DNA of 64,000 nt from Oscillospiraceae bacterium. Lineage in GTDB: Bacteria > Bacillota > Clostridia > Oscillospirales > Oscillospiraceae. The translations under genes and the position numbers were made by a program. A model generated the notes under the pieces. That model searched no databases. It worked only from the letters and a program-made list of their open reading frames with translations, and was not told the DNA's origin. Location of the stretch: NCBI GenBank assembly GCA_017458335.1, contig JAFTFT010000016.1, forward strand, positions 49,531 to 113,530, read 5' to 3'. Shown in pieces: positions 2,048-25,408 of the stretch (position 1 is the stretch's first letter; the number at the start of each line of letters is the position of its first letter).

Positions 2048-2055
2048 GGGAACAC

Positions 2056-3341: not shown

Positions 3342-3670
3342 TCTTTGTGACGGGGCCGCTCTATGCGGGGAAGAAAACCTGGATTCGGAAACAGCTCGGA
3401 CTGACGGAGGCGGAGCTTGCCGACTGCGCCGTCTGGGATGTGCAGAATCTGGTTCCGGTTGAAAACCTGGAAACGCTGGCAGACGGACTCGCCGGGCGGC
3501 GGATTGTGATCTCCACGGAGATCGGCGGCGGTGTGGTCCCCTTGGATCCCGCGGAGCGGGAAAGACGGGAAGCTGCCGGGCGGCTTGCCTGTCTTCTGGC
3601 AGAGCGGGCAGAGACGGTGGTCCGCGTCTGCTGTGGTCTGCCGCAGCTGCTGAAAGGGGAATGGCCGTGA
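3332..3670 (+). CDS. Shortened CobU-like protein with degenerate P-loop
   Basis: A 112-residue protein that looks like a compressed CobU. The N-terminus IFVTGPLYAGKKTW aligns with the P-loop region but ends GKK instead of GKS/T. The middle part normally holding the GMP-binding histidine is missing, while the C-terminal half (STEIGGGVVPLDPAERERR, then RVCCGLPQLLKG) resembles the VTNEVG...AGRL...GLP end of CobU. It overlaps both cobS (10 bases) and cobC (10 bases), so it is translated with the operon. It is unlikely to be a full kinase/guanylyltransferase; a regulatory or accessory role to CobU is possible but is inference. It is not obviously decayed: the frame is clean and codon use matches its neighbours. 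Confidence 0.72.
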   Translation: MAVIFVTGPLYAGKKTWIRKQLGLTEAELADCAVWDVQNLVPVENLETLADGLAGRRIVISTEIGGGVVPLDPAERERREAAGRLACLLAERAETVVRVCCGLPQLLKGEWP

Positions 3671-4254
3671 AAGTCTGGCTGATCCGGCACGGAATGACCC
3701 GGCTCGGGGAAGAAAAACGGTATCAGGGACGCCTGGACGACGGACTATCCCCGGAGGGACGGGCGGCGCTCAAACAGGCGGACTTCCGGCCAAAGCGGGT
3801 GTATGTGTCGCCGGCGCTGCGCGCGCGGGAGACGGCGGAAATCCTCTTTCCGGAGGCGGAGCAGCTGCTCTGCCCAGATCTGCGGGAAATGGACTTCGGA
3901 AGCTTCGAAGGCCGCGGCTGGTGGGAGATGGAAGAAGACGCTGCGTATCGCTCCTGGGTGGATGGCGGCTGCCGCGGACGCTGCCCCGGGGGTGAAGAAA
4001 AGACAGAACTCACCGAGCGGGTCAACAGAGGCTTTGAGCGGATTCTGGAAGCCGAGATCGAAAAGGCGGAACCCGGGGAAGACCTCGTGATTGTAGCCCA
4101 TGGCGGCACACAGATGGCCCTGCTGGAGGAAAAGGGCATCCCGCGGAGAGAATACTACCGCTGGCAGAGACCCTGCGGCTGCGGCTGGCTGCTGGACTGG
4201 GAGCCGGAGGGCAAAACACTGCATGTGATACGGGAGATATCGTTTTTGAAATGA
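3661..4254 (+). CDS. cobC: Histidine phosphatase, probable alpha-ribazole phosphatase
   Basis: Phosphoglycerate-mutase superfamily enzyme expected to dephosphorylate alpha-ribazole phosphate or adenosylcobalamin phosphate. 197 residues. Visible superfamily residues: LIRHGMTRLGEEKRYQG at the N-terminus (catalytic RHG), the SPALRARETAE arginine motif near residue 45, the DFGSFEGR acidic motif near 80, and the second catalytic His in VIVAHGGTQMALL near 146. The specific substrate is assigned from context, since the superfamily is broad; its place between cobU/cobS-type genes and cbiB strongly supports CobC. ATG 3661 overlaps the preceding stop; GTG 3667 is an alternative start. Confidence 0.88.
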   Translation: MAVKVWLIRHGMTRLGEEKRYQGRLDDGLSPEGRAALKQADFRPKRVYVSPALRARETAEILFPEAEQLLCPDLREMDFGSFEGRGWWEMEEDAAYRSWVDGGCRGRCPGGEEKTELTERVNRGFERILEAEIEKAEPGEDLVIVAHGGTQMALLEEKGIPRREYYRWQRPCGCGWLLDWEPEGKTLHVIREISFLK

Positions 4255-5231
4255 GAATTCTGCTGGCTGCGATCTGCGGCTTTGTGCTGGATCTGATTTT
4301 GGGAGATCCGGAGCTGCTTACGCCGGTTCATCCGGTGGTTCTGATGGGACACTGTATCACGGCGCTGGAAACATGGCTGAGAACGCTCATGCCGAAAAGC
4401 CCTCGGGGAGAGCGGCTGGGCGGAATTCTGCTTGCGATGATTCTGCCTCTGGGGACGCTGGTGAGCTGCGGACTCATGCTCATGCTGCTGAATCGACTCT
4501 GGCCTCCGCTGGCCTTTCTGCTTGAGTGCATCTGGAGCTGGCAGGCCCTTGCGGGGAAGAACCTCAAAGATGAGGCGATGCGCGTTACCCTTGCCATGAA
4601 AGACGGAACGACGGAGGATGCCAGAGCGGCGGTTTCGCGGATTGTCGGGCGGGATACCGAGGCACTGGACCGGAGCGGTGTGACGCGGGCCGCGGTTGAG
4701 ACCGTGGCGGAGAACTTCTCCGACGGAGTCGCGGCGCCGATGCTGTATATGTTTCTCGGCGGAGCACCGCTGGCTCTGTGCTACAAAGCCGTCAACACCA
4801 TGGACAGCATGGTGGGGTATCGGAATGAGCGCTATCTCCGGTTCGGGAGAGCGGCGGCCAGACTGGACGACGCGGCAAACTATCTTCCCTCCCGGCTGGC
4901 GGCGCTGATCCTGATTGCTGCCGCGGGAATTTGCGGGGAGGACAGAAAGGCCGCCGCGGAGATCTGGAAACGGGATCGTCGGAAGCATGCCAGCCCCAAC
5001 TCCGGTCAGTGCGAGGCGGTGATGGCGGGCGCGCTGGGCCTGCGGCTCTGCGGGCCGGCAAGCTATTTCGGAAAGACTGTTGACAAGCCCTATATCGGGG
5101 ATGCACGCCGGGAGGCGGAGGCGGAAGACATCTGCCGTGCCTGCCGGATGGAGCAGACCGGAAGCTGGCTGTGCCTGGTCCTGCTGGGCGTGATCAGACT
5201 GGGCATCGTTTTACTGGGGAAGGTATTATGA
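4251..5231 (+). CDS. cbiB: Adenosylcobinamide-phosphate synthase, membrane protein
   Basis: Attaches (R)-1-amino-2-propanol or its phosphate to adenosylcobyric acid. 326 residues with several transmembrane segments. Family signatures: GFVLDLILGDPELLTPVHPVV at the N-terminus (GDP...HPV), AVSRIVGRDTEALD near 130, AVETVAENFSDGVAAP near 150, and NTMDSMVGYRNERY near 183. The start ATG overlaps the cobC stop (ATGA). The next gene encodes the threonine-phosphate decarboxylase that would supply the aminopropanol phosphate, so substrate supply and use are adjacent. Confidence 0.95.
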   Translation: MRILLAAICGFVLDLILGDPELLTPVHPVVLMGHCITALETWLRTLMPKSPRGERLGGILLAMILPLGTLVSCGLMLMLLNRLWPPLAFLLECIWSWQALAGKNLKDEAMRVTLAMKDGTTEDARAAVSRIVGRDTEALDRSGVTRAAVETVAENFSDGVAAPMLYMFLGGAPLALCYKAVNTMDSMVGYRNERYLRFGRAAARLDDAANYLPSRLAALILIAAAGICGEDRKAAAEIWKRDRRKHASPNSGQCEAVMAGALGLRLCGPASYFGKTVDKPYIGDARREAEAEDICRACRMEQTGSWLCLVLLGVIRLGIVLLGKVL

Positions 5232-6280
5232 CGGGGACACACGGCGGCGACTGGGCCGGATATGAAACAGAATACGGCTTCCTGCCGCTGGATTTCTCGG
5301 CAAATATCAGCCCGCTGGGCCTGCCGGACGGTGTACGGGAGGCGGCAGTACAGGCACTGCAGGATGCAGAGCGGTACCCTGATCCCCTCTGCCGTGGGCT
5401 TCGGACCCGGCTGGCCGAACGGCACGGCATCCCGGCGGTACAGATCGTCTGCGGAAACGGCGCCGCGGATCTGATCTTCCGAATCTGCCGGGTACTGCGG
5501 CCGAAGAAGGCGCTGCTTACGGCGCCGGATTTCGGAGAGTACGAACAGGCACTTCGGGAAGAGAATTGTGAGATCCGCACCGTGGCCAGGCAGGAGAGAG
5601 AGGGCTTTCTCCTGCACTGGGAAGACCTGGCGGAAAACATCCGGAACGCGGAACTGTTCTTCCTCTCCAATCCCAACAATCCGACAGGACTGCTGACTGG
5701 ACGGGAAGAACTGCGAAAGATCCTGAAGCTCTGCAGAGATGAGCACTGTGTGCCTGTGATCGACGAATGCTTCCTGGATTTTACCGAAGTTTCGGAGACA
5801 GAGAGCCTGATCCCGGACCTGAGGCAGAGTCCGAATCTGGTGATCCTCCGGGCCTTCACCAAGACTTATGCCATGGCGGGGCTGCGCCTCGGCTATGCCA
5901 TCTGCGGCAGCGCGGCTTTCGCGGAGCGCCTGCAAAGCGCGGGGCAGCCCTGGCCGGTGTCAAACGTGGCTCAGGCAGCCGGGGCAGCAGCATTGCAGGA
6001 TGATAATTATGTAAACCGACTGCGAGCCCTGATTTCTGGGGAGCTACCGCGCATGATCCGGGCATTGACAGCTCTCGGACTGCGCGTTATCCCCGGCGAA
6101 GCCAATTATCTGCTGTTTTTCTGTGAGGATGGGGGACTCGGGGAAAAACTTCAAAAGCGGGGCATCCTGATCCGGGACTGCCGGAACTATGCAGGCCTCA
6201 CGGAAGGCTGGTACCGGATCGCGATTCGGTCTAAAGATGAGAACGACAGGCTGATTCATATGCTGGGGGAGGTGCTGTAG
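5228..6280 (+). CDS. cobD: PLP-dependent threonine-phosphate decarboxylase
   Basis: Fold-type I aminotransferase-like enzyme that decarboxylates L-threonine phosphate to aminopropanol phosphate for CbiB. 350 residues from ATG 5228, which overlaps the cbiB stop (ATGA). Seen in the protein: HGGDWAGYETEYGF and LDFSANISPLGLP at the N-terminus, the SNPNNPTGLL motif near residue 155, the VIDECFLDFT PLP-contact Asp near 178, and the PLP lysine in AFTKTYAMAGLRLGYAI near 215. The N-terminal DFSANI...LG pattern separates this family from histidinol-phosphate aminotransferases. Context removes most of the remaining doubt. Confidence 0.92.
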   Translation: MTGTHGGDWAGYETEYGFLPLDFSANISPLGLPDGVREAAVQALQDAERYPDPLCRGLRTRLAERHGIPAVQIVCGNGAADLIFRICRVLRPKKALLTAPDFGEYEQALREENCEIRTVARQEREGFLLHWEDLAENIRNAELFFLSNPNNPTGLLTGREELRKILKLCRDEHCVPVIDECFLDFTEVSETESLIPDLRQSPNLVILRAFTKTYAMAGLRLGYAICGSAAFAERLQSAGQPWPVSNVAQAAGAAALQDDNYVNRLRALISGELPRMIRALTALGLRVIPGEANYLLFFCEDGGLGEKLQKRGILIRDCRNYAGLTEGWYRIAIRSKDENDRLIHMLGEVL

Positions 6281-6281
6281 G

Positions 6282-7781
6282 ATGGCGAAATGCATCATGG
6301 TGCAGGGAACCATGTCCGGAGCGGGGAAAAGCCTGCTGGTGACGGCGCTCTGCCGGATCTTCATGCAGGACGGCTTCCGCGTGGCTCCCTTCAAGAGCCA
6401 GAACATGGCCCTCAACAGCTTTGTCACGGCGGACGGGCTGGAACTGGGACGGGCTCAGGCGGCCCAGGCCGAGGCGGCGGGAATCCCCTGTGATGTTCGG
6501 ATGAACCCGATCCTGCTGAAGCCCTCCAGCGACACCGGCAGCCAGCTTATCGTGATGGGTGAGGTACGCGGCCAGTATGACGCAAAGGACTATTTCAGGA
6601 TGAAACGAGGGCTGATCCCGGAGATCCTGAAGGCCTACAACAGTCTGGCCGAGGAGAACGACATCATCGTGATTGAAGGCGCGGGCTCTCCCGCGGAGAT
6701 CAACCTCCGCCAGGACGACATCGTCAACATGGGCCTTGCGGAGCTGGTGAATGCACCGGTGATCCTGGCCGGGGACATCGACCGGGGCGGCGTCTTTGCC
6801 CAGCTCTACGGTACAGTGGCTCTGCTGCAGCCGGAGGAACGGAAGCGGGTGATCGGGACCGTGATCAACAAGTTCCGCGGAGACGTGGAACTGCTGCGGC
6901 CGGGCCTGAAGCAGCTGGAAGAGCTGACCGGGGTGCCGGTGCTCGGCGTGGTGCCCTGGATGAAGGTGGACATCGACGACGAAGACAGCCTCGCGCCCCG
7001 GCTGGAGAGAAGCGAAAACGCGGACAGACCGCTGGACATCGCGGTGATCCGGCTGCCGCATGTGTCGAATTTCACGGACTTCTCGCCGCTGGAGGAACAT
7101 CCAGCAATTGGACTGCATTATGTAAACCAAACGGAACAGCTCGGACAGCCGGATCTCGTGATTCTCCCCGGAACCAAGAACACCATGGGGGATCTCCGCT
7201 GGCTTCGGGAGAGGGGACTGGACATGGAGATCCTTGCGCTTCATGAAACGGGAACGGCAATCCTCGGGGTCTGCGGCGGCTATCAGATGTTGGGCAGGCG
7301 TCTGTCGGATCCGGAGGGCGTGGAAGGCGGCGGAAGCGCTGAAGGCCTCGGACTTTTGCCCTGTGAGACGGTCTTCGCCGGAGTAAAGACCAGAACCAGG
7401 AGACGGGCGGTCTGCGCGGAAGGCCCCTTTGCCGGTGTACGGCTGGAGGGGTATGAGATCCACATGGGGAGAACTCATTCCGCAGCGGCTCCTTTCTGCC
7501 GTATGGAAGACGGCACGGAAGACGGCGCGGCGGAAGAAAGTGTGTTCGGAACTTATTTGCACGGCCTGTTCGACAGCGGGGAACTGGTGAACCGCCTGGC
7601 CGAATGGCTCGCGGCGAGAAAAGGAATCCGGATTCCGGAACAGAGAGCGGAAAACAGGGCGGCATACCGGAACCGGCAGTATGATCTGCTGGCGGATACT
7701 GTGCGGAGCAGTCTGGATATGGAAACAATCAAACAGGCGATGGAGGCCTTTCAGCATGATCAGAACACCGGGACAGATTGA
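6282..7781 (+). CDS. cobQ: Cobyric acid synthase (adenosylcobyric acid synthase, glutamine-hydrolysing)
   Basis: Amidates the b, d, e and g side chains of adenosylcobyrinic a,c-diamide using glutamine and ATP. 499 residues. The N-terminal dethiobiotin-synthetase-like domain has VQGTMSGAGKS (P-loop) and PFKSQNMALNS; IEGAGSPAEINLR and GDIDRGGVFAQ follow. The C-terminal glutaminase domain has nucleophile Cys in ILGVCGGYQML near residue 330 and His in YLHGLFDSG near 425. A GGGAGGTG-type ribosome site lies just upstream. Its last 26 bases overlap the cbiC start. It is equivalent to CbiP in the anaerobic nomenclature. Confidence 0.96.
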   Translation: MAKCIMVQGTMSGAGKSLLVTALCRIFMQDGFRVAPFKSQNMALNSFVTADGLELGRAQAAQAEAAGIPCDVRMNPILLKPSSDTGSQLIVMGEVRGQYDAKDYFRMKRGLIPEILKAYNSLAEENDIIVIEGAGSPAEINLRQDDIVNMGLAELVNAPVILAGDIDRGGVFAQLYGTVALLQPEERKRVIGTVINKFRGDVELLRPGLKQLEELTGVPVLGVVPWMKVDIDDEDSLAPRLERSENADRPLDIAVIRLPHVSNFTDFSPLEEHPAIGLHYVNQTEQLGQPDLVILPGTKNTMGDLRWLRERGLDMEILALHETGTAILGVCGGYQMLGRRLSDPEGVEGGGSAEGLGLLPCETVFAGVKTRTRRRAVCAEGPFAGVRLEGYEIHMGRTHSAAAPFCRMEDGTEDGAAEESVFGTYLHGLFDSGELVNRLAEWLAARKGIRIPEQRAENRAAYRNRQYDLLADTVRSSLDMETIKQAMEAFQHDQNTGTD

Positions 7782-8418
7782 GCGGGCAAGCATGGCGCTG
7801 ATCCGGGCGGAACTTCGGGAACGGGGCATCGCGCTCCCGACAGAGAACGAGGCCGTAATCCTGCGCTGCATCCACGCGAGTGCCGACTTTGACTACGCCG
7901 CGAACCTGCGCTTTACCCAAGGGGCAGTGAAGAAAGCCACGGACGCGCTTCACAGCGGCACGGAACTCGTGACAGATACCAACATGGCGCTGGCCGGGAT
8001 CAGCAGGCCGGGCCTGCAGAAGCTCGGTGTCTCGGCGTACTGCTACATGGCGGAGACGTTCATCGCAGATCGGGCAAAAGCAGAGGGAAGCACCCGCGCC
8101 GCGGCGGCAATGGACTGGGCTGCGGAGCAGAATCCCGGCGCAATCCTCGCCGTCGGAAACGCCCCGACAGCGCTGCTGCGGATCGCGGAGCAGATCCGGG
8201 ACGGACTGCGCCCGGCGTTGGTGATCGCGGTGCCGGTGGGCTTTGTAAACGTCGTGGAGAGCAAAGAGCTGATCTTTGCGGTCTGCGAAGAAGCGGATGT
8301 CCCCTGCATTGCGGCCATGGGCCGCAAAGGCGGCAGCAGCATCGCCGCGGCGATCTGCAACGCGCTGATCTATTCCGCGGCGGATCTCCTGGAACCCGAT
8401 GCGAGAGGCTGGACCTGA
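7756..8418 (+). CDS. cbiC: Cobalt-precorrin-8X methylmutase
   Basis: Moves the C11 methyl group to C12, giving cobyrinate. 220 residues from ATG 7756, chosen because it yields the family N-terminus (RTPGQIERASMALIRAEL). The catalytic His is in LRCIHASADFDYA near residue 35; further signatures are DTNMALAGIS near 75, NAPTALLRI near 138 and PVGFVNVVESKE near 160. The gene overlaps cobQ by 26 bases in another frame. The following small gene starts two bases after its stop. Confidence 0.95.
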   Translation: MIRTPGQIERASMALIRAELRERGIALPTENEAVILRCIHASADFDYAANLRFTQGAVKKATDALHSGTELVTDTNMALAGISRPGLQKLGVSAYCYMAETFIADRAKAEGSTRAAAAMDWAAEQNPGAILAVGNAPTALLRIAEQIRDGLRPALVIAVPVGFVNVVESKELIFAVCEEADVPCIAAMGRKGGSSIAAAICNALIYSAADLLEPDARGWT

Positions 8419-8419
8419 C

Positions 8420-8695
8420 ATGAGTGAAAAACACTACCGTTTTTTTCAGAACCGGGAATGCGAATTCTTCCCCTGCCATGAAGGCGTGGAGGAAACAGAA
8501 TTCAACTGCCTGTTCTGCTACTGCCCGCTCTATGCCCTGGGCGAAAAATGCGGAGGCGGCTTTGTCTATACGGAGAGCGGTGTGAAGAGCTGCGAGCACT
8601 GCCCCTTTCCGCACCGGCGCGAGAACTACGAGGCCATTCTCCGGCGCTTTCCGGAGCTGGCCGTGCTGGCGGCCAAACGGGAGAAGGCACCATGA
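8420..8695 (+). CDS. Cysteine-rich small protein of the cobalamin operon
   Basis: A 91-residue soluble protein with nine cysteines. They are arranged as CEFFPC, CLFCYCPLY, a single Cys in EKCGG, and CEHCPFPH, the pattern of the 'cysteine-rich small domain' family that recurs in corrin gene clusters of anaerobes. The spacing suggests binding of zinc or an Fe-S cluster, but no reaction is known to me. It is tightly embedded, starting two bases after cbiC and overlapping the cbiD start (ATGA), so it is almost certainly co-translated with corrin enzymes. Possible roles are metal handling or assistance to a ring-contraction step; both are inference. Confidence 0.82.
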   Translation: MSEKHYRFFQNRECEFFPCHEGVEETEFNCLFCYCPLYALGEKCGGGFVYTESGVKSCEHCPFPHRRENYEAILRRFPELAVLAAKREKAP

Positions 8696-9831
8696 GCTTT
8701 GAACACTACATCCGCAGCGGCAGCAGGCGTCTGCGCTGCGGCTATACGACCGGGAGCTGTGCGGCCCTGGCGGCCGCAGGAGCAGCGGAACTGCTGCTCT
8801 CAGGGACTGCCCCGGAGACGCTGGCCCTGCTGACACCCGGCGGACTGCGGGTCGATACGGAACCGGTCTTCTGCCGCATGGAGGGGAAGCGGGCGCTCTG
8901 CGCCGTGCGCAAGGATGCCGGGGACGACCCGGATGTGACGAACGGAATCCTGATTGTCGCGGCGGTCAGCAAATGCGATGACGGGATCACCATTGACGGC
9001 GGAGAGGGGATCGGCCGGATAACGAGGCCGGGCCTGGACCGGGCGGTGGGGGAAGCGGCCATCAACTCCGTACCGCGCCGGATGATCCGCAGCGCGCTGG
9101 AGACCGTCTGCGACGAGCTTGGCTTTGCAGGCGGCCTGAAGGTGGTGATCTCCGCGCCGGAGGGGCGGGAGATCGCGAAAAAGACCTTCAATCCGATGCT
9201 CGGCATCGAGGGGGGCATCTCGATTCTGGGAACATCCGGGATCGTCGAGCCCATGAGCGAGCAGGCCATCGTCGAAACCATCGCCCTGGAAATCCGGCAG
9301 AAAGCGGCTTCCGGCAGCAAACGGCTGATCCTCTGCCCGGGTAACTACGGCCTGGACTTCCTGCGGGAGGGGCTGCCGGAACTGGAACCGATCCCGCGGG
9401 TCAAGTGCTCCAACTACATCGGGGACGCGCTGGATCTGGCTTTGCTGGAGGGAATGAAGGAAGTGCTGCTGATCGGTCATGTCGGCAAGCTGGTGAAGCT
9501 CGCCGGCGGGATCATGAACACACACTCCCGCATGGCCGACTGCCGAAGGGAGCTCTTCTGCGCACACGCGGCACTCTGCGGCGCGGACCGGGAAACCTGT
9601 GAAAGCCTGATGCGGCAGGTGACAAGCGACGGCTGCCTGGAAGTCCTGAATGATTCTGAATTATGTAAACCAGTGACGGAGAGCCTGCTGCGGGAGATCC
9701 AGAAGGTTCTGGAGCGGCGCAGCGGCGGAGCCTGCCGCATGGGAGCCGTGATGTTCTCCAACGTCTATGGCCTGCTGGGCAAAACCGCGGAGGCGGAAGC
9801 GCTGCTCCGGGAATGGAGAGAGCCGGCATGA
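8692..9831 (+). CDS. cbiD: Cobalt-precorrin-5B C1-methyltransferase
   Basis: S-adenosylmethionine-dependent methylation at C1 in the anaerobic route. 379 residues from ATG 8692, which overlaps the preceding stop (ATGA). The N-terminus carries the family motif RCGYTTGSCAALAA; later come DPDVTNG near residue 80, GITIDGGEGIGRITRPGL near 100, NPMLGIEGGISILGTSG near 170-185, and LIGHVGKLVKLAGGI near 260 with the NTHSRMAD segment. CbiD marks the oxygen-independent pathway. It lies directly before cbiG, consistent with successive reactions. Confidence 0.95.
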   Translation: MSFEHYIRSGSRRLRCGYTTGSCAALAAAGAAELLLSGTAPETLALLTPGGLRVDTEPVFCRMEGKRALCAVRKDAGDDPDVTNGILIVAAVSKCDDGITIDGGEGIGRITRPGLDRAVGEAAINSVPRRMIRSALETVCDELGFAGGLKVVISAPEGREIAKKTFNPMLGIEGGISILGTSGIVEPMSEQAIVETIALEIRQKAASGSKRLILCPGNYGLDFLREGLPELEPIPRVKCSNYIGDALDLALLEGMKEVLLIGHVGKLVKLAGGIMNTHSRMADCRRELFCAHAALCGADRETCESLMRQVTSDGCLEVLNDSELCKPVTESLLREIQKVLERRSGGACRMGAVMFSNVYGLLGKTAEAEALLREWREPA

Positions 9832-10859
9832 GAGAAGGAATTGCCTTCCTGGCTTTCACCGACCGGGGAGAAGCTCTGGCAGAGGAGCTCGCCGAAGCGA
9901 CCGGAGGTGAGACCGCACGGGCCGGGAGAGAGACGGATCTCGGAAGCTGGACGGAAGCGGCCTTCCGGGAAAAGCGGGCGCTGGTCTACGTCGGCGCGGT
10001 CGGGATCGCCGTCCGAGCCGTTGCGCCGTTTCTCAGGCACAAGGCGGAAGATCCGGCGGTTCTGGCGGTGGATGAAACCGGACATTATGTGATTCCGCTG
10101 CTCTCCGGACACCTGGGCGGAGCGAACGCGCTGGCCAGGGAACTGGCCGCCGTCACCGGCGGAGAGGCAGTCATCACGACGGCGACGGATCTGCACGGGG
10201 TGTTTGCCGTCGATCTCTGGGCGAAGAAACAGAACATGACCGTTCGGCAGCCGGAGCGGATCAAGACGGTTTCGGCGAAGCTTCTGGCGGGGCAGGTAAT
10301 CCGGCTGGACTGCCGCTGGAAGATTCAGGGAACGGTGCCGGAGAACGTCCGGAGGCTGCAGGATGACAGTATTCGGGAGAGAGCTTCTTCGGACATGGAA
10401 CGCACAGACATCGACGTGCTGGTGGACTTTCGCGATGCCGTGTGCACCGGGCTTCAGCTGGTTCCGCGAATTCTGCACCTCGGCATCGGCTGCCGGAGGG
10501 GAACGGGCGAAGAAGCGCTTGAAACAGGCCTGGAACACTTCTGCCGGGAAAGGAACATCCTGCCGGAGGCCATCCGCTCGGCTGCGAGCATCGACCTGAA
10601 GCGCGGGGAAGAGGGCCTTCTCCGTTTCTGCCGGGAGCATGATTGGCCGATCCGCTTCTATACGGCGGACGAACTGCGCCGCGCGGAAGGACACTTCTCG
10701 GGATCGGAGTTTGTACGGTCGGTCGCCGGCGTGGACAACGTCTGTGAGCGCGCCGCGGTTCTGAGGAGCGGCGGGAAGCTGACAGAGACGAAATATGCGC
10801 AGAACGGCATCACCTTTGCCCTGGCAGAAGAAATAGCATGCTTTGACTGGAGTTGGTAA
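9828..10859 (+). CDS. cbiG: Cobalt-precorrin-5A hydrolase
   Basis: Opens the delta-lactone of cobalt-precorrin-5A with loss of acetaldehyde, a step unique to the anaerobic route. 343 residues from ATG 9828, overlapping the cbiD stop. The N-terminal part has IAFLAFTDRGEALAEEL and VGAVGIAVRAVAP; the middle has YVIPLLSGHLGGANALA. The C-terminal CbiG domain has HLGIGCRRGTGEEAL near residue 218 and SIDLKRGEEGLL near 255. The three-part organisation (N, linker, C) is of normal family length. Confidence 0.94.
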   Translation: MREGIAFLAFTDRGEALAEELAEATGGETARAGRETDLGSWTEAAFREKRALVYVGAVGIAVRAVAPFLRHKAEDPAVLAVDETGHYVIPLLSGHLGGANALARELAAVTGGEAVITTATDLHGVFAVDLWAKKQNMTVRQPERIKTVSAKLLAGQVIRLDCRWKIQGTVPENVRRLQDDSIRERASSDMERTDIDVLVDFRDAVCTGLQLVPRILHLGIGCRRGTGEEALETGLEHFCRERNILPEAIRSAASIDLKRGEEGLLRFCREHDWPIRFYTADELRRAEGHFSGSEFVRSVAGVDNVCERAAVLRSGGKLTETKYAQNGITFALAEEIACFDWSW

Positions 10860-10860
10860 C

Positions 10861-11589
10861 ATGGGGAAACTCTATGTGGTCGGGATCGGTCCGGGGGACG
10901 GACGATACCTGACCGAGGCCGCCCGCGCGGCGCTGGAAGAGGCGGATGTGCTCTGCGGATATACGCTGTATGTGGAGCTGCTGAAACCGTTCTGGCCGGA
11001 GAAGGCAACCTACAGTACCGGTATGACCGGGGAGATGGAGCGCTGCCGCTGGTGCCTGGAACAGGCAGCCGGCGGAAAAACCGTTGCCCTTATCTGCAGC
11101 GGAGACGCGGGAATCTACGGCATGGCGGCTCCGGTCCTGGAACTCAGGAAGGAGTACGGAGAGGCGGAAGTGGAGATTATCCCCGGCATTACCGCGGCGC
11201 TTTCCGGCGGCGCACTGCTGGGGGCGCCGCTGGGGCACGACTTCTGTGTGATCTCGCTGTCCGACCGCCTGACGGACTGGGCGCAGATCGAAGAGCGGCT
11301 GCGCTGTGCGGCGAGAGGGGATTTTGCGATCTGCCTGTATAATCCCGCATCCCGGCACCGGCGGGACTATCTGCAGCGGGCCTGCGACATCCTGCTCTCG
11401 GAAAAGAGCCCGGAAACCGTCTGCGGTCTGGCCCGGTCCATCGGCCGCGAAGGGGAGAGCATCCGGATCCTTCCGCTTTCCGAGCTGCGCGGTACGGAGG
11501 CGGATATGTTCACGACTGTGTTCATCGGTTCCTCCCAGACCAGAGAACTGGACGGACGGATGGTGACCCCGAGGGGGTACCGCACATGA
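10861..11589 (+). CDS. cbiH: Cobalt-precorrin-3B C17-methyltransferase
   Basis: SAM-dependent ring-contracting methyltransferase. 242 residues starting at ATG 10861, two bases after the cbiG stop. Tetrapyrrole-methylase motifs: LYVVGIGPGDGRYLTEAA at the N-terminus, LICSGDAGIYGMA near residue 77, VEIIPGITAALSGGALLGAPLGHDF near 103-128, and CLYNPASRHRRDY near 160. The H-D-F segment after the glycine run is typical of the CobJ/CbiH branch rather than CbiF, CbiE or CbiL. The gene ends overlapping cbiJ. Confidence 0.95.
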   Translation: MGKLYVVGIGPGDGRYLTEAARAALEEADVLCGYTLYVELLKPFWPEKATYSTGMTGEMERCRWCLEQAAGGKTVALICSGDAGIYGMAAPVLELRKEYGEAEVEIIPGITAALSGGALLGAPLGHDFCVISLSDRLTDWAQIEERLRCAARGDFAICLYNPASRHRRDYLQRACDILLSEKSPETVCGLARSIGREGESIRILPLSELRGTEADMFTTVFIGSSQTRELDGRMVTPRGYRT

Positions 11590-12338
11590 AATTCGTCATT
11601 TTCAGCGGAACCACCGAGGGCAGGAAGCTCTCTGCCCTGTTGGCAGAGGCCGGGGCGGACGTGACGGTCTGTGTGGCAAGCGACTATGGCAGTGAAGAAC
11701 AGGGCATCATTCCCGGCGTGAAAGTACGGACGGGGCCTCTGAGCGCGGAGGAAAAGCAGAAGCTGCTGCGAGGCTGTGCGCTCTGCGTGGATGCGACACA
11801 CCCCTACGCGACCCATGTCACCGCCTCCGTTCGGGAGGCCTGCCGGGAGACAGGTGTGCCGTATGTCCGCCTGCTACGCCCGCCCAGCGAGACTGGGGAC
11901 GCGAGATGCTTTGAGACCGCCGAAGACGCGGCCAACTGGCTCAGCGGGCAGGAAGGGAACATCCTCCTTACCACCGGGGTAAAGGAACTCTCCGCCTGTG
12001 CGGCCATCGACCCGGAGCGGCTTTATCCGCGAATCCTGCCGAGCCGCCAGAGCCTTGAAGCCTGTGAGCGCCTCGGCATCCCGCACCGGAACATCATCGC
12101 CATGCAGGGACCTTTTTCCGAAGAGCTGAACCGGGCCATCATCCGTCAGTATCGGATCCGGTACCTGGTCTCGAAGGACGGCGGAGTGCCGGGCGGTTTC
12201 CCGGAGAAGGCGGCGGCATGCCGGGAGACCGGAACGGCGATGATTCTGCTGCGCCGTCCGGAGGAAACCGGCATGAATTTTGAAACGGTATACCAAAGGT
12301 GCATAACGCTGCTCAATAGCGGCGATGCAATACAATAA
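11586..12338 (+). CDS. cbiJ: Cobalt-precorrin-6A reductase
   Basis: Reduces the macrocycle of cobalt-precorrin-6A using a nicotinamide cofactor. 250 residues. Visible: VIFSGTTEGRKLSALLAEAG at the N-terminus (dinucleotide-binding loop), CVDATHPYATHVTASVREAC near residue 65, and ALCVDATHPYA plus RLLRPPSE motifs of the CobK/CbiJ family; AMQGPFSEELN occurs near 165 and SKDGGVPGGFPEK near 195. It overlaps cbiH (ATGA) and appears to be the last cobalamin enzyme before a 35-base gap. A short inverted repeat (CGATTC-TCAC-GAATCG, 12339-12354) sits in that gap. Confidence 0.93.
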   Translation: MKFVIFSGTTEGRKLSALLAEAGADVTVCVASDYGSEEQGIIPGVKVRTGPLSAEEKQKLLRGCALCVDATHPYATHVTASVREACRETGVPYVRLLRPPSETGDARCFETAEDAANWLSGQEGNILLTTGVKELSACAAIDPERLYPRILPSRQSLEACERLGIPHRNIIAMQGPFSEELNRAIIRQYRIRYLVSKDGGVPGGFPEKAAACRETGTAMILLRRPEETGMNFETVYQRCITLLNSGDAIQ

Positions 12339-12373: not shown

Positions 12374-13330
12374 ATGAAAAAACTGTTTGCACTGATCCTG
12401 TCCCTGAGCCTGATGCTCAGCTTCTTTGCCGCCTGGGGCGGCAGCGGAACCCCGGCTTTCGCCGAAGAGGCGGAAGAAGAGGAAGAAAACTATGAAACCG
12501 GGGATGCCTCCCTGGATGACCCGCTGAATGCGGACGGGATCGGGGAGAAGGAACTGCTGGTCGTCTCCTTCGGTACCAGCTTCAATGACAGCCGCCGCCT
12601 GACCATCGGCGGGATCGAGCGTGCCCTGCAGAAAGCCTTCCCTGACTGGAGCGTACGCAGAGCCTTTACCAGCCAGATCATCATCGACCATGTGAAGAGC
12701 CGCGACGGTGAGGTCATTGACAACGTTTCCGAGGCGCTGGACCGCGCGGTCGAAAACGGCGTGAAGACCCTGGTCGTGCAGCCGACTCACCTGATGCACG
12801 GCTTCGAGTATACCGACCTGGTGAACGAGCTGGCCGAATATGCCGATGCCTTCGAGAGCATCACCGTAGGTGAGCCGCTGGTGAACAGTGAGGAAGACTT
12901 TGCCCTGACGGCTGCAGTTCTCGCCGATGTTACCGCATCCTATAACGACGGAAAAACCGCCATCGTCTACATGGGTCACGGCACGGAGGCCGAGTCCAAC
13001 GAGATCTATGCCAAGATGCAGCAGCTCATGAAAGATTCCGGTTATGAGAACTATTTCATCGGCACCGTCGAAGCGGAGCCCTCTCTGGAGGATGTCCTGG
13101 CGCTGGTTCAGGCCGGCAGCTATGAGCGCGTCGTGCTGCGCCCGATGATGATCGTCGCGGGTGACCATGCCAACAACGACATGGCCGGAGACGAGGAAGA
13201 CTCCTGGAAGTCCGTCTTCGAAGGCGCGGGTTACGATGTGGAATGCGTCCTGCAGGGCCTGGGGCAGAGCAGTGTTGTTCAGCAGATGTTTGTCCGGCAC
13301 ACCGCTGAAGCCATGGCGAAGCTCGGATGA
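12374..13330 (+). CDS. cbiK: Exported CbiK-type sirohydrochlorin (cobalto)chelatase-like protein
   Basis: Class II chelatase of the CbiK family with a signal peptide. 318 residues; residues 1-30 form a classical Sec signal (KK, hydrophobic core, AFA before EEAEEE) and residues 31-55 an acidic linker. The enzyme core starts near KELLVVSFGTSFNDSRR. The putative metal ligands match CbiK spacing: His202 in MGHGTEAE, Glu233 in GTVEAE and His265 in AGDHANND. A good AAGGAGA ribosome site precedes ATG 12374. Cytosolic CbiK inserts cobalt into sirohydrochlorin; an exported copy cannot easily serve the cytosolic pathway, and its stop overlaps the start of a NEAT-like binding protein, so a role in uptake of metals or tetrapyrroles is plausible (inference). 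Desulfovibrio periplasmic CbiK is a known exported relative. Confidence 0.9.
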   Translation: MKKLFALILSLSLMLSFFAAWGGSGTPAFAEEAEEEEENYETGDASLDDPLNADGIGEKELLVVSFGTSFNDSRRLTIGGIERALQKAFPDWSVRRAFTSQIIIDHVKSRDGEVIDNVSEALDRAVENGVKTLVVQPTHLMHGFEYTDLVNELAEYADAFESITVGEPLVNSEEDFALTAAVLADVTASYNDGKTAIVYMGHGTEAESNEIYAKMQQLMKDSGYENYFIGTVEAEPSLEDVLALVQAGSYERVVLRPMMIVAGDHANNDMAGDEEDSWKSVFEGAGYDVECVLQGLGQSSVVQQMFVRHTAEAMAKLG

Positions 13331-15249
13331 TGAAAGCCTTCAGAAAAGTTGCTTCCCTGTTCCTGAGCGCGGTGCTGCTGCTTGCACTCTGCGCTCAGGC
13401 AGGGGCGGAGAAGGCACCCGCCGCTTCCCGGGAGGTGGCGGATGCTTCCCAGATGACCACCGTAGAGGACGTGGTGGAAGAAGGAATGGTGCCCATAGCG
13501 GGTGAGATGCTTCTGGACGGGGATTACGCCGTTGCGGTGGACTGCAGCTCCTCCATGTTCCGCATCGTGGAAGCCGTGCTTCATGTTTCGGACGGGAAAC
13601 TCACCGCGACGATCACCATGAGCGGGACGAGCTATCTTTATGTTTTCCCCGGAACCGCAGCGGAAGCGGCGGCAGCTGAGGAGAGCACATGGATCGGCTA
13701 TACCGAGGACAGCGAGGGCAGATTCTGCTTCAACATTCCGGTGGATGCTCTGGATGCCGGCGTCCCCTGCGCCGCCTACAGCAGGAACAAGGAACTCTGG
13801 TATGACCGTACCCTGCTGTTCCGGGCGGATTCTCTTCCGACGGAGGCATTCCGGGAGGGATTCTTCGTCACGGCGGAGAGCCTGGGGCTTGCCGACGGAG
13901 ACTATCTTGTCGACGTGAGTCTCTCCGGCGGCAGCGGAAAGGCAAAGCTTGCCTCACCTGCGACGCTGCATGTGGAAAACGGAAGCTGTACCGCGACCCT
14001 CGTCTGGGGCAGCAGAAACTATGACTATATGCGCCTGGGGGAGACAAAGTATCTCCCGCTCCCGGACAGGGAGACATCCACCTTTGAGATCCCGGTTGAG
14101 ATCTTTGACCGCAACATGGCCGTGATCGCCGATACGGTTGCCATGAGCGAACCGCATGAAATCGAATACCGGCTTTTGTTTTCCTCAGCCAGCCTTCAGC
14201 TCTTAAACTCCGAGGCAGATTCTGCCTCGGAGGCGGAGCTCTGCGCCGCGGAGCAGTTCCGGGTTGACTTCCGGGAGGATGGTTCCGCGCTTCTGACTCT
14301 GGGGGAAAAGGAGCGGTATCTGCTCCTGGACCGCGAGGCGGAGATTCCGGCGGATGCGGAGGGACTCACGATCATCCGCACACCGGTGGAACGGGTCTAC
14401 GCGGCCAGCTCCTCCGTTCCGGATCTGTTTCTGCGCTGCGGCGCGCTGGATCGGATCCGTTTTACCAGCACGGCGGAATTCTCCTGGCGTCTGCCGGAGC
14501 TGCAGGAGGCCCTGCAGAAGGGAAGCCTTCTCTATGCGGGAAAGTATAATGCGCCGAATTATGAGCTCCTGCTGGAAGAGAACTGTGACCTGGTGATCGA
14601 AAACACCATGATCTTCCACAAGCCTGAGGTCAGGGAGAAGCTGGAAGCCCTCGACCTGCCGGTGATCATCGAGTACTCCAGCTATGAACCGGAACCCCTC
14701 GGACGGGTGGAGTGGATCCGGCTTTACGGACTTCTGACCGGACATCAGGCGGAAGCGGACGCCTTCTTTCAGAAACAGAGAGAAGTGCTGGAGCACACCG
14801 CAGCGGAAGCGCCGACGGGAAAGACCGCCGCGTTCTTCCATATCGCCTCCAACGGCGCCGCGGTGGTGCGGCGCAGCAGCGACTATGTCACCAAAATGAT
14901 TGAACTGGCGGGCGGCCGGTCACCCTTTACGGAGCTTCCGGAAGAGGACAACGCCCTATCGACCGTCACCATCCAGATGGAATCATTCTATGCACAGGCG
15001 CGGGACGCCGATGTGCTGATCTACAACAGCACCGTCTCCGGGGATCTGGAGCGGATGCAGGACCTGCTCGCCAAGAGCAGTCTGTTTGAAGACTTCAAAG
15101 CCGTACAAAGCGGCGAGGTCTGGTGCACGGAGCAGAGCATGTTCCAGCAGAGCTCCGCAACGGCGGGAATGATCGCGGACATCCATACAATCCTGAGCGG
15201 GGAAGCGGATGGACGGGATCAGCTGACCTGGCTGCACCGGATCCGATAA
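13327..15249 (+). CDS. Binding protein with two NEAT-like domains fused to a FhuD/HmuT-type receptor
   Basis: 640-residue exported protein. Residues 1-28 are a signal peptide (the Cys in LALCAQ is not a good lipobox). Two repeats of about 110 residues follow, near 61-170 and 188-288. Each begins DGDY, carries a strand of the type KLTATITMSGTSYLYV or SCTATLVWGSRNYDYM, and ends in an IPV...YDRTLLF-type strand, resembling NEAT haem-binding domains. The Tyr motif YDYMRLGETKYLP is in repeat two. Residues about 315-640 look like a class III periplasmic binding domain for metals, siderophores or corrinoids (TPVERVYAASSSVPDLFL; WIRLYGLLTGHQAEAD). It overlaps the chelatase stop (ATGA) and precedes permease and ATPase genes. 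Ligand is not determined; haem, another tetrapyrrole or a metal chelate are candidates. Confidence 0.8.
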   Translation: MMKAFRKVASLFLSAVLLLALCAQAGAEKAPAASREVADASQMTTVEDVVEEGMVPIAGEMLLDGDYAVAVDCSSSMFRIVEAVLHVSDGKLTATITMSGTSYLYVFPGTAAEAAAAEESTWIGYTEDSEGRFCFNIPVDALDAGVPCAAYSRNKELWYDRTLLFRADSLPTEAFREGFFVTAESLGLADGDYLVDVSLSGGSGKAKLASPATLHVENGSCTATLVWGSRNYDYMRLGETKYLPLPDRETSTFEIPVEIFDRNMAVIADTVAMSEPHEIEYRLLFSSASLQLLNSEADSASEAELCAAEQFRVDFREDGSALLTLGEKERYLLLDREAEIPADAEGLTIIRTPVERVYAASSSVPDLFLRCGALDRIRFTSTAEFSWRLPELQEALQKGSLLYAGKYNAPNYELLLEENCDLVIENTMIFHKPEVREKLEALDLPVIIEYSSYEPEPLGRVEWIRLYGLLTGHQAEADAFFQKQREVLEHTAAEAPTGKTAAFFHIASNGAAVVRRSSDYVTKMIELAGGRSPFTELPEEDNALSTVTIQMESFYAQARDADVLIYNSTVSGDLERMQDLLAKSSLFEDFKAVQSGEVWCTEQSMFQQSSATAGMIADIHTILSGEADGRDQLTWLHRIR

Positions 15250-15356
15250 AATATTAAGAGAGAAAACAAGCGCCCGTCATGGGCGAAACGATAACACACC
15301 GCAATACAGCGACAGCCGTACCGGATTTTGAAAAAACACAGGAAGGAGGAAAGAGC

Positions 15357-16409
15357 ATGAACCAACAGGAAGCGCTCGGCATATCCTGTGAAATGGCAGG
15401 AAAGCGCCGTATCAGATGCTGCTTTGGGATTCTTATCATTCTGCTGATGATCCTCCTGATCCTGAATCTCCTGTCAGGGAGCAGCCGTATCACGCCGGGA
15501 GAGGCCTTTTCCGCCCTGTTCCGGGGAGAGACGGGAGAAACCTCCGCCCGCATCATAAGGAGCATCCGCCTTCCGCGCCTGCTGGCCGCGGCCATTCTCG
15601 GAGGCGGGCTCTCGGTTTCCGGATACCTGCTGCAGACCTTCTTCGGAAACCCGATCGCCGGACCCTTTGTACTGGGCATCTCCTCCGGGGCCAAGCTCCT
15701 CGTCGCACTTGTGATGATCTTCTCCCTCGGAAAGGGAATTGTCCTGCATTCGGCGGCAATGGTTGCAGCGGCCTTCTGCGGCGCGATGCTCTCCATGGGC
15801 CTGGTTCTGCTGGCGAGCCGGAAGCTCAGAAGCATGGCGCTGCTGGTGGTCTGCGGCGTGATGATCGGCTATGTCTGTTCCGCTGTTACGGAGATCGCGG
15901 TGACCTTTGCCGATGACAGCAATATCGTGAACCTGCACAACTGGTCCATGGGCAGTTTCTCCGGAATCGACATGGGGGATGTGGCGGTTCTGAGCGGGAT
16001 TGTGGTTCCGGCGGTTCTGCTGGCGTTCCTGCTCTCCAAACCGATGGCGGCGTATCAGCTCGGGGAAGCCTATGCCCGGAGCATGGGAGTCAATCTCCGG
16101 CGGTTCCGGGCGGCGCTGATCCTCCTGTCCAGCGTGCTGTCCGCCTGTGTGACCGCGTTTGCCGGGCCGATCTCCTTTGTGGGGATCGCGGTGCCGCATC
16201 TGATGCGCAGTTTCTTCCGCACGGCAAAGCCGATCCTGATGGTGCCCGCGTGCTTCCTGGGCGGCGGTGTCTTCTGCCTGTTCTGCGACTTGATTGCCCG
16301 GACGCTGTTTGCCCCGACGGAGCTCTCCATCAGCACCGTGACGGCGGTCTTCGGCGCGCCGGTGGTGATCTGGATGCTGCTCACGAGAAAGAGAGGCGAT
16401 ACCCGGTGA
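15357..16409 (+). CDS. BtuC/FecCD-family ABC transporter permease
   Basis: Membrane subunit of a type II importer for iron-siderophore, haem or vitamin B12. 350 residues with about ten transmembrane helices. Family signatures: GEAFSALFRG then RLPRLLAAAILGGGLSVSGYLLQ near residue 70, NPIAGPFVLGISSGAKL near 95, YARSMGVNLRRFR near 240 (the coupling region), and GPISFVGIAVPHLMRSFF near 270. ATG 15357 was chosen because GGAAGGAGGA lies ten bases upstream; an earlier ATG in frame lacks a ribosome site. The 107-base gap before it holds a small hairpin (CGCCC-gtcat-GGGCG) without a T-run. The stop overlaps the GTG start of the ATPase. Confidence 0.93.
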   Translation: MNQQEALGISCEMAGKRRIRCCFGILIILLMILLILNLLSGSSRITPGEAFSALFRGETGETSARIIRSIRLPRLLAAAILGGGLSVSGYLLQTFFGNPIAGPFVLGISSGAKLLVALVMIFSLGKGIVLHSAAMVAAAFCGAMLSMGLVLLASRKLRSMALLVVCGVMIGYVCSAVTEIAVTFADDSNIVNLHNWSMGSFSGIDMGDVAVLSGIVVPAVLLAFLLSKPMAAYQLGEAYARSMGVNLRRFRAALILLSSVLSACVTAFAGPISFVGIAVPHLMRSFFRTAKPILMVPACFLGGGVFCLFCDLIARTLFAPTELSISTVTAVFGAPVVIWMLLTRKRGDTR

Positions 16410-17566
16410 GCAATGCAGAAAGCTTCGTCATGGGTTCTGCTGCAGGTCAGGCTCCGACGCTGTCCACCGAAGGCCTGAGCGTCGGCTACGGCAGAACCGC
16501 CGTCGTGGACGGCATCCGGATCCGGGTGGAAGCGGGAGAGATCCTCTGTCTCATCGGCCCGAACGGCGCGGGCAAATCCACGATCCTGAAGACCCTGATC
16601 CGTCAGCTTCAGCCGATGGGCGGCACCGTCCTGCTGGAAAACACACCGCTGCCGGATATGAAGGAGCGGGAATTGGCCCGGAAGAGCGCGGCGGTCCTGA
16701 CCGGTCGGATTGCACCGGAACTGATGACCTGCGAAGAGGTGGTCGCCATGGGGCGGTATCCCTATACCGGAATGCTGGGGATCCTCTCGGATGCGGACCG
16801 GGAAAAGGTGGATGAGACGATCCGCATTGTAGGGATGGAAGAAATCCGAAAGAAGGACTTCGACCGCATCAGCGACGGACAGCGCCAGCGGGTCATGCTG
16901 GCCAGAGCTCTCTGTCAGGAGCCGAAGCTGCTTGTTATGGACGAACCGACCTCCTTTCTGGATATCCGGAACAAGCTGGAGTTTCTGAGTATTCTGAGGC
17001 AGCTGGTCCGGAAGCGGGAGCTTGCGGTCATTATGTCGCTTCACGAGCTGGATCTGGCCCAGAAGTTCTGCGACCGGATCGTCTGCGTCGGAGACGGAAC
17101 AATCCGGGCGGCCGGAATGCCGGAAGAGATTTTTTCCGGAGATGTAATCCGGGACCTCTATGGGGTGGAGCACGGAAGCTATGACTGCCTCTTTGGAACG
17201 GCGGAAGCGGAAAGAAACAGCGCTTCGCCCCGCGTTTTCGTCATCGGGGGAGGCGGGAGCGGGATTCCGCTCTACCGGAGACTCCAGCGGGAGGGGATTC
17301 CCTTTGCCTCAGGTGTCCTGCCGGAGAACGACCTGGACTTGTCGGTCGCGAAAGCGCTGGCTTCCGTGGTCATCACGGACCGGGCGAACGAGCCGGTCTC
17401 CGCAGAGCGGGCGGAGGAAGCGCTTGCCGTATTGAAAACCTGCGAAACGGTCATCTGCACGGTGGATCATTTCGGAACTGTCAACCGCGAGAACCAAAGA
17501 TTGTTGGAATATGCGGAAGAACACGGCCTTCTGAAATGTGAAAAATTAATGAACGGTAAAGATTGA
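16406..17566 (+). CDS. ABC importer ATPase (FecE/HmuV type) with extra C-terminal domain
   Basis: 386 residues from GTG 16406 (GTGA overlap with the permease stop). The ATPase core has Walker A IGPNGAGKST, Q-loop region in AAVLTGRIAPELM, signature SDGQRQRVMLARAL, Walker B KLLVMDEPTSFLDIR, and the switch His in SLHELDLA, and ends near residue 265. An additional domain of about 115 residues follows (VFVIGGGGSGIPLYRRLQREG ... ASVVITDRANEPVS ... VICTVDHFGTVNRENQ). It is absent from classical HmuV/BtuD and looks like a small Rossmann-like fold with a glycine-rich turn. It may sense a nucleotide or ligand, but no function can be read from it. The gene pairs with the permease and NEAT-like receptor. 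Confidence 0.9.
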   Translation: MSNAESFVMGSAAGQAPTLSTEGLSVGYGRTAVVDGIRIRVEAGEILCLIGPNGAGKSTILKTLIRQLQPMGGTVLLENTPLPDMKERELARKSAAVLTGRIAPELMTCEEVVAMGRYPYTGMLGILSDADREKVDETIRIVGMEEIRKKDFDRISDGQRQRVMLARALCQEPKLLVMDEPTSFLDIRNKLEFLSILRQLVRKRELAVIMSLHELDLAQKFCDRIVCVGDGTIRAAGMPEEIFSGDVIRDLYGVEHGSYDCLFGTAEAERNSASPRVFVIGGGGSGIPLYRRLQREGIPFASGVLPENDLDLSVAKALASVVITDRANEPVSAERAEEALAVLKTCETVICTVDHFGTVNRENQRLLEYAEEHGLLKCEKLMNGKD

Positions 17567-18604: not shown

Positions 18605-18661
18605 TCCGTCTTTGATCGCAGAGACTCCTGATTCTTAACAGTTATTTAGCGGCAAAAATCG

Positions 18662-18690
18662 AAAGGGCAGGCATAAACCTGCCCTTTTTT
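18662..18690 (+). terminator. Intrinsic terminator between tctC and tctB
   Basis: AAAGGGCAGG - cataaa - CCTGCCCTTT hairpin directly followed by a run of T. It lies inside the tct operon, so it likely attenuates transcription into tctB and tctA and favours the binding protein. Confidence 0.88.
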
Positions 18691-18720
18691 CAAAAAGAGA
18701 GAAAAAGGAGGAATCCTTCC

Positions 18721-19185: not shown

Positions 19186-19200
19186 AGGAGGATTGAGAAT

Positions 19201-25401: not shown

Positions 25402-25408
25402 GTGCGTG

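Follow-up and report, generated by a model that had tools for sequence, protein, structure and literature searches.

CbiKP of Desulfovibrio vulgaris is reportedly an exported CbiK with cobaltochelatase activity, and we know of no cluster with NEAT-like repeats or a substrate-binding protein (SBP) around its gene. A second exported CbiK homolog, that of Porphyromonas gingivalis, goes by the names IhtB and FetB, which we take to denote one protein. For CbiK itself, the passages on the enzyme in PMC7689651 state that it produces cobalt-sirohydrochlorin and that in mutants it can provide iron for sirohaem. The Iht section of PMC10913741 describes IhtB as thought to remove iron from haem and IhtC-E as importing the iron, and places IhtB outside PgFur control. 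P. gingivalis lacks the steps leading to precorrin-2, according to a passage in PMC6461909 that cites its reference 83. Here we analyze a gene cluster in 64,000 nucleotides of an Oscillospiraceae bacterium (assembly GCA_017458335.1, contig JAFTFT010000016.1, positions 49,531 to 113,530, forward strand; the whole stretch is called the window). As in Iht, going by the same section of PMC10913741, an exported CbiK homolog is grouped with a binding protein, a permease, and an ATPase; Iht has a TonB receptor and an outer membrane, whereas the window system has NEAT-like repeats instead. Iht is the nearest known arrangement, and the two chelatases belong to separate clades. We propose that the clostridial cluster probably supplies the synthesis of vitamin B12 and does not serve to acquire haem iron. 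The proposal is based on sequence: an export signal, a metal site, gene order, fusions, the B12 riboswitches of relatives, and the co-occurring loss of HemC, SUMT, and the cytosolic chelatase.

An earlier reading of the window, made from its letters without database searches (the original prediction), had described a CbiK-family protein with a signal peptide and an intact metal site, a receptor with two NEAT-like repeats, a permease, and an ATPase. The parts of the cluster are as follows.

12374..13330, plus strand: exported CbiK-family class II chelatase, 318 amino acids (PF06180)
12374..12463, plus strand: signal peptide of about 30 amino acids, ...TPAFA/EEAEEEE (by eye)
12977..12979, plus strand: codon of His202, putative metal ligand in MGHGT (alignment; invariant in 24/24 exported domains)
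13070..13072, plus strand: codon of Glu233, putative metal ligand in GTVE (alignment; invariant in 24/24 exported domains)
13166..13168, plus strand: codon of His265, putative metal ligand in GDHANNDMA (alignment; invariant in 24/24 exported domains)
13327..15249, plus strand: receptor, 640 amino acids, with signal peptide, two NEAT-like repeats, and Peripla_BP_2 domain (open reading frame, Pfam)
13438..13836, plus strand: NEAT-like repeat 1, with SSSMF motif and invariant WYxR (alignment, profile comparison)
13852..14232, plus strand: NEAT-like repeat 2, with YDYM, and with HxxxY where canonical NEAT has YxxxY (alignment; HxxxY by eye)
14377..15246, plus strand: substrate-binding-protein domain (Pfam, profile search of solved chains)
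15357..16409, plus strand: FecCD/BtuC-type permease (PF01032, E 1.7e-78)
16430..17566, plus strand: ATP-binding cassette (ABC) ATPase with C-terminal extension (PF00005, E 3.3e-29)
17180..17563, plus strand: C-terminal extension of the ATPase (ATPaseC), also found in many relatives (sequence comparison)

The chelatase matches PF06180 in Pfam with an E value of 1.1e-79 (267.9 bits against a curated cutoff of 26.2) and is the sole PF06180 match and the sole PF01903 match of the window genome, which is 84% complete. Its score against the NCBIfam equivalog for sirohydrochlorin cobaltochelatase, NF047852, is 230.7 bits and stays below the cutoff of 400; it is therefore placed within the CbiK family but not filed as that equivalog. 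Only three solved chains match it, namely, FetB (9b86, the nearest, E 2.6e-44), Salmonella CbiK (1qgo), and CbiKP (2xvx), and residues 202, 233, and 265 align with the His, Glu, and His of all three. Invariance of the metal site was scored in an alignment of 24 exported domains (A1). The signal peptide, MKKLFALILSLSLMLSFFAAWGGSGTPAFA, was read by eye and not with a signal-peptide program. It is followed by an acidic linker and then by the class motif ASLDDPxNxDxIGE, which stands just ahead of the domain in 27 of 29 exported CbiK domains, those without it being at L036 and L037 (L and G numbers denote loci and genomes).

The receptor gene overlaps the chelatase gene by four bases (ATGA at 13327-13330). 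Its two N-terminal repeats resemble each other in a profile comparison (hhalign, probability 98.6). They are followed by the Peripla_BP_2 domain (residues 360 to 603, E 8.1e-30 in Pfam), whose profile matches among solved chains, Lmo2184, 4ovk, and IsdE, are weak (E 8.5e-9 to 4e-4). At a lax threshold (E ≤10), a NEAT match appears in 35 of 41 aligned sequences; ten relatives scored singly all fell under the Pfam NEAT cutoff, and the second repeat of a fused relative (L067) exceeded it with 36.2 bits. Canonical NEAT domains ligate haem iron through a YxxxY motif. The 41 first repeats all lack this motif, 4 of the 41 second repeats have it, and at its place 35 of the 41 second repeats show, by eye, a His and then a Tyr four residues on.

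The permease frame is open from 15279, with a likely true start at 15357 behind a ribosome-binding site; the ATPase frame is open from 16250 and likely starts at 16406 or 16430. In NCBIfam, the ATPase comes closest to NF007082 (corrinoid ABC transporter ATPase), at 235.9 bits under a cutoff of 537. With Peripla_BP_2 domain, FecCD permease, and ABC ATPase, the FecCD/BtuCDF-type importer set is complete by Pfam. The details of the original prediction for these genes could thus be read where it had put them: the signal peptide, which supports its claim that the chelatase is exported, the three intact ligands, the four-base overlap, the repeat pair, and the permease and ATPase downstream (PF01032 and PF00005).

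Conservation was assessed at 80 named loci, the best 80 of 589 relatives. Their titles name 79 Bacillota and one Fusobacterium naviforme (Fusobacteriota at NCBI), a record that we suspect belongs to a misnamed clostridium. The NEAT-like pair lies beside or is fused to the chelatase in 75 of the 80, as the next recognized gene in 69 and as a fusion in 6. The five loci without the pair comprise L138 and L183, where the gene is followed by little DNA; L184, where a binding protein comes next; and L116 and L128, which have room behind the gene yet no cluster. Where the DNA suffices, an SBP follows in 63 of 68 loci, a FecCD permease in 58 of 64, and an ATPase in 52 of 58, and other cbi or cob genes adjoin the cluster in 45 of the 80. 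Tandem CbiK-CbiK-NEAT chains occur at L067 and L139, and two CbiK proteins (L066 and L069) carry S-layer homology domains. Fusions and S-layer homology domains together suggest that the parts are placed together outside the membrane, and the latter fit a location at the cell surface. The cluster is a conserved unit. The original prediction would have fallen had a genome survey found chelatase and importer apart; instead, the link among chelatase, NEAT-like receptor, and importer that is physical in the window is evolutionary in the relatives, in 75 of 80 of which chelatase and repeats stay together.

Within the family to which the window genome belongs, 57 of 150 genomes had a CbiK match, 56 of them over the cutoff. 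We sampled 60 CbiK loci and then ten more and called each exported or cytosolic from signal peptide and context, a home-made rule that was corrected by hand (L086, for example, was moved to cytosolic). The first 60 loci comprised 24 exported and 36 cytosolic, the cytosolic proteins being about 260 amino acids long and many of them encoded in cbi operons. NEAT-like repeats were present at 16 of the 24 exported loci, with 4 of the 8 misses stopping at a contig end, and at 2 of the 36 cytosolic loci (L075 and L079; L059 was viewed in part). In a tree of 72 CbiK domains, all 29 exported domains, the window's included, form a single clade with support of 100/99. A grouping of exported clostridial CbiK with FetB or CbiKP is unsupported by this tree, in which both references sit on long branches.

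Several loci in this survey depart from the common pattern. At L075:461-2334 and L079:4250-6255, the gene directly after that of a cytosolic-type CbiK encodes two NEAT-like repeats behind an N terminus that looks like a signal peptide; these repeat proteins have no Pfam match, and no FecCD importer was found in the DNA examined. The product of L107 (G084) is CbiK-like but divergent, and its N terminus resembles a signal peptide; it appears to be another exported chelatase, in a genome that has no match to CbiD, CbiL, HemC, or SUMT. At L036:6578-9389 (G003), an exported lipoprotein-type CbiK comes after a FecCD permease and an ATPase and adjoins cbi genes; the locus has no NEAT-like match and is nearer to Iht in make-up. 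The stalk ahead of the exported CbiK at L067 has a Pfam match, under the cutoff, to the N-terminal domain of copper amine oxidase, and the stalks at L053 and L062 show the same likeness by eye.

Shelton et al. (2018) defined tetrapyrrole-precursor salvagers and verified the salvage of 5-aminolevulinic acid (ALA); the passages on them in PMC6461909 name no uptake machine. By HemC and SUMT, neither of which was found, and by its corrin pathway, which is present, the window genome would rank among such salvagers (HemA, HemL, HemB, and HemD were not searched). No HemC match and no SUMT match over the cutoff were found in this 84% complete genome; a 140-bit match to the SUMT model is CbiF, which scores 328.6 bits with TIGR01465. 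It also contains no CbiX and no second CbiK. Precorrin-2 dehydrogenase was not found in it, the only genome checked for this enzyme, since its three PF13241 matches are TrkA, a GltD-like protein, and the small subunit of glutamate synthase. CbiL, CbiF, CbiET, CbiD, CbiG, CbiJ, CbiB, CbiP, CobT, and a CobB-type protein are kept.

The same gap is frequent in genomes whose only CbiK is exported. Of 57 CbiK-bearing genomes, 50, the window's included, were kept for this tally as corrin-pathway genomes; set aside were G084 (divergent exported CbiK, no cbi genes), G098 (CbiX), and five genomes in which a cytosolic CbiK occurred but CbiD and CbiL did not; G081, known from fragments, was counted as cytosolic. 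SUMT was found in 5/17 exported-only genomes, 5/8 genomes with both kinds of CbiK, and 24/25 cytosolic-only genomes, and HemC was found in 3/17, 5/8, and 23/25, respectively. Fisher tests of exported-only against cytosolic-only genomes, uncorrected for kinship, gave 6e-6 for SUMT and 1e-6 for HemC. Both genes were missing from 12/17 exported-only genomes and from 0/25 cytosolic-only genomes. Where cytosolic CbiK was present, 29 genomes had SUMT and 4 did not; where it was absent, the numbers were 5 and 12 (Fisher 5e-5, again uncorrected for kinship). When the tally was limited to genomes with completeness of 90% or more and contamination of 5% or less, the exported-only and cytosolic-only classes contained SUMT in 1/7 versus 16/16 and HemC in 1/7 versus 15/16. 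No CbiX and no cytosolic CbiK occur in the exported-only genomes, whose matches to the CbiX model are the exported CbiK (CobN-type chelatases were not searched). An internal precursor goes with an internal CbiK, and a missing precursor goes with an external CbiK, a tetrapyrrole-type receptor, and an importer, often under B12 control.

The loss recurred in a sample of 50 of the 80 named exported-CbiK genomes (the 27 best and 23 picked), for which completeness was not given and cytosolic CbiK was not scored. SUMT exceeded the cutoff in 9 and HemC was found in 8, leaving 41 without SUMT and 42 without HemC. A weaker methylase match of 80 to 165 bits was present in 49 of the 50 (G175 being partial) and was taken for CbiF because the equivalent match in the window genome is CbiF. 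Both genes are missing, for example, from the isolates Ruminococcus flavefaciens YL228 and F. naviforme ATCC 25832, and both are present in others, such as Ruminococcus sp. strain YE71, Enterocloster alcoholdehydrogenati, and Lachnoclostridium An14. Neither gene was found in L109/G150, the closest named relative. Mapped onto the exported-CbiK tree, the HemC states require six changes, at least five of them by well-supported branches, and neighboring rows have opposite states. This indicates that the loss was not one inherited event, with the caveat that the tree is that of a gene and not of species.

The regulation and surroundings of the cluster point to cobalamin. A cobalamin riboswitch (Rfam) precedes the cluster in 31 of 46 exported loci scanned. 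At a distance of no more than about 0.7 kb ahead of the CbiK domain or the cluster, it is present at 13 of 19 exported loci of the family (at L071, before the first cluster gene) and at 18 of 27 named loci, 11 of the 27 having been chosen because a B12-box pattern had failed. This simple pattern misses Rfam riboswitches (e.g., those at L122, L147, and L164) and was dropped as evidence. L093, the sole cytosolic locus in the scan, has two cobalamin riboswitches. In G080, a nickel/cobalt (NiCo) riboswitch (L052:11450-11521, minus strand) lies ahead of the exported CbiK frame at a distance of about 1.1 kb. In the window, the chelatase gene begins 35 bases past cbiJ, and with so short a gap it is probably part of the cobalamin operon. 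The cobalamin riboswitches, the cbi/cob neighbors in 45 of 80 loci, and the position behind cbiJ sustain the cobalt or corrinoid relevance that the original prediction had drawn from the upstream genes.

Without synthesis of precorrin-2, a cell that retains the corrin steps beginning with CbiL depends on cobalt-sirohydrochlorin or a compound immediately preceding it. We infer the substrate of the cluster, the direction of the reaction (insertion), the hand-over between the parts, and the transport of a cobalt form. The cell would have lost the tetrapyrrole front (HemC, SUMT, and precorrin-2 dehydrogenase) and kept the corrin pathway from CbiL onward. Free tetrapyrrole from neighbors or dead cells would be captured by the NEAT-like repeats, the ring most likely being sirohydrochlorin, or sirohaem after removal of its iron. 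The exported CbiK would insert cobalt outside the membrane to give cobalt-sirohydrochlorin (cobalt-factor II), which would be handed to the binding-protein domain and carried by the BtuC-like permease and its ATPase into the cytosol, where CbiL and the other Cbi enzymes would complete the corrin. In genomes that have SUMT as well, the exported system would be a second source. External insertion of cobalt into scavenged sirohydrochlorin, followed by import, would be the simplest account of the pattern, and cobalt loading before uptake appears well supported as a genomic hypothesis. Of the options in the original prediction, loading a metal before uptake is favored by the absence of HemC, SUMT, and a cytosolic chelatase.

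Several observations weigh against a B12 supply line. No riboswitch precedes the cluster in 15 of the 46 exported loci scanned, and the window together with 19.6 kb upstream contains no cobalamin riboswitch over the Rfam threshold. SUMT is retained in 9 of the 50 named genomes and in 5 of the 17 exported-only panel genomes, so the system does not serve SUMT-less cells solely. Completeness of the window genome is 84%, and because HemC and SUMT are often close together, a single gap might remove both. CbiL was not matched in five genomes (G033, G080, G083, G113, and G127). Against Pfam NEAT (PF05031), whose cutoff is 32.8 bits, the window repeats reach 16.1; the repeat pair that had been predicted stands, its resemblance to NEAT is weak, and the repeats are best regarded as divergent candidates for tetrapyrrole binding for which the label "NEAT-like" is fair but weak. 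Of the three parts that allow a full comparison, two are as close to haem carriers as to B12 carriers: the permease matches HmuU first, FhuB second, and BtuC third among solved chains, and the binding domain matches IsdE. Other metals are possible as well, as a 2026 review states in its passage on FetB that this enzyme makes manganese protoporphyrin IX and exchanges porphyrin metals (PMC13402209).

Among other explanations, the one that survives best has metal-free sirohydrochlorin imported, or sirohaem stripped first, and cobalt added by an unrecognized internal chelatase, the exported CbiK being a stripper or carrier only. The supply of iron for sirohaem by CbiK in mutants (PMC7689651) and the metal exchange ascribed to FetB (PMC13402209), both as worded in the passages cited above, would suit it. 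We consider it unlikely, given that the metal site of the exported chelatase is intact and that exported-only genomes have neither CbiX nor cytosolic CbiK, within a search that did not include CobN-type enzymes. Ordinary uptake of cobinamide or cobalamin under B12 control, with a chelatase that merely holds or supplies cobalt at the surface, would account for the BtuC-like permease, the best match of the ATPase to a corrinoid transporter model (under its cutoff), and the B12 riboswitches. However, a pure salvager has no need of CbiL to CbiJ or of a chelatase, and a corrin pathway kept alongside lost HemC and SUMT would go unexplained; this makes such uptake quite unlikely.

Haem-iron acquisition was the first idea: the repeats would take haem, the exported chelatase would extract its iron by reverse chelation, and iron or haem would be imported. 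It draws on the NEAT-like repeats, the IsdE-like binding domain, and HmuU as the first match of the permease, and for IhtB of P. gingivalis an equivalent proposal has been published (PMC10913741, Iht section). The cobalamin riboswitches (31/46 exported loci), the cbi/cob neighbors (45/80 named loci), the association with loss of HemC, SUMT, and cytosolic CbiK, and the rarity of YxxxY (0/41 and 4/41) all argue against it. The winning of iron from haem that the original prediction had offered is weakened by these results, and we set it aside as very unlikely. To read the pathway gap as an artefact caused by incomplete bins, many of them 59 to 90% complete, and by kinship within one clade of exported chelatases, which the Fisher values ignore, is highly improbable because the pattern persists at 90% completeness or more (SUMT 1/7 versus 16/16), both genes are missing even from isolates (R. 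flavefaciens YL228 and F. naviforme ATCC 25832), the contrast recurs inside one genus (G064 versus G143), and HemC status changes at least five times on the exported-CbiK tree.

The window upstream of the cluster contains one long set of cobalamin genes.

1..12338, plus strand: cobalamin genes CbiA/CobB, CobT, CobU, CobS, phosphatase, CbiB, CobD, CbiP, CbiC, zf-like, CbiD, CbiG, CbiH, and CbiJ (Pfam, NCBIfam)

CbiJ, CbiG, the zf-like protein, and a TP_methylase were recognized by Pfam, CbiH being our own name for the TP_methylase; CobU, CobS, CobD, and CbiC matched NCBIfam models under the curated cutoffs. The genes for CbiF and CbiET lie just upstream of the window, where a MerR-family regulator gene stands ahead of cbiF (L096:16062-16892), and CbiL is on another contig of the genome. 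Immediately downstream of the cluster and in the same orientation is a tripartite tricarboxylate transporter, TctC-TctB-TctA (17636-20757). No TonB-dependent receptor was found among the neighboring genes run against Pfam, and no genome-wide search was made. Elsewhere in the window are a lysine riboswitch (25236-25405, minus strand, 93.7 bits) and a match to SpF59, a Streptococcus small RNA family (56590-56640, minus strand, 62.9 bits against a threshold of 37.2); the closest named relatives of this genome are clostridia. G004 and G109, congeners of the window organism, have no CbiK match, and the trait is patchy in the genus.

Gut and rumen anaerobes of this kind have a corrin pathway without the means to make its substrate, P. 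gingivalis being the old example, and the proposed cluster would be a concrete machine for the missing step. It predicts a new currency of B12 cross-feeding. If the B12 supply line is real, sirohydrochlorin would be a shared good among anaerobes, the annotation of such genes as haem-iron or cytosolic cobaltochelatase genes would change, and genomes now scored as other kinds of salvager would form a class of their own. A rumen study, in the part concerned with salvagers, labels a genome with corrin genes and 0/5 early genes a cobinamide salvager (PMC12654859). More broadly, we give an even chance to a reading in which B12 synthesis is split across the membrane, with cobalt loading outside by an exported CbiK placed beside tetrapyrrole-binding domains, import, and completion inside, and in which the clostridial cluster and, convergently, Iht form the entry of a corrin pathway that lacks its own beginning. 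No earlier statement of extracellular cobalt loading for B12 was found in the literature searched, whose scope excluded subscription papers and preprints.

The proposed system shares features with several known ones. Like tetrapyrrole-precursor salvagers, the window genome has kept the corrin pathway and lost early tetrapyrrole genes, but the verified salvagers take up ALA, going by the definition cited above, whereas the window genome also lacks SUMT and an uptake machine is proposed for it. As in Isd-type haem import, NEAT-like repeats and an IsdE-like binding domain precede a FecCD importer; the window cluster differs in that YxxxY is mostly absent, a chelatase is added, and many relatives have a B12 riboswitch. 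Cytosolic CbiK of the Salmonella 1qgo type shares family and metal site with the window chelatase, which in contrast is predicted to be exported, lies in a separate clade, is coupled to an importer, and scores below the NF047852 cutoff. CbiKP, reportedly an exported CbiK as well, belongs to another clade (on a long branch). FetB is the nearest solved chain (9b86, E 2.6e-44), yet it falls outside the clostridial exported clade (support 100/99, FetB on a long branch). The host of Iht resembles the window genome in having no precorrin-2 synthesis (PMC6461909, same passage), while passages in PMC10913741 and PMC13402209 treat the Iht chelatase in connection with haem iron and manganese porphyrin. 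An exported CbiK beside an importer was already known from the description of Iht in PMC10913741, and what is new here is the role that we propose for it.

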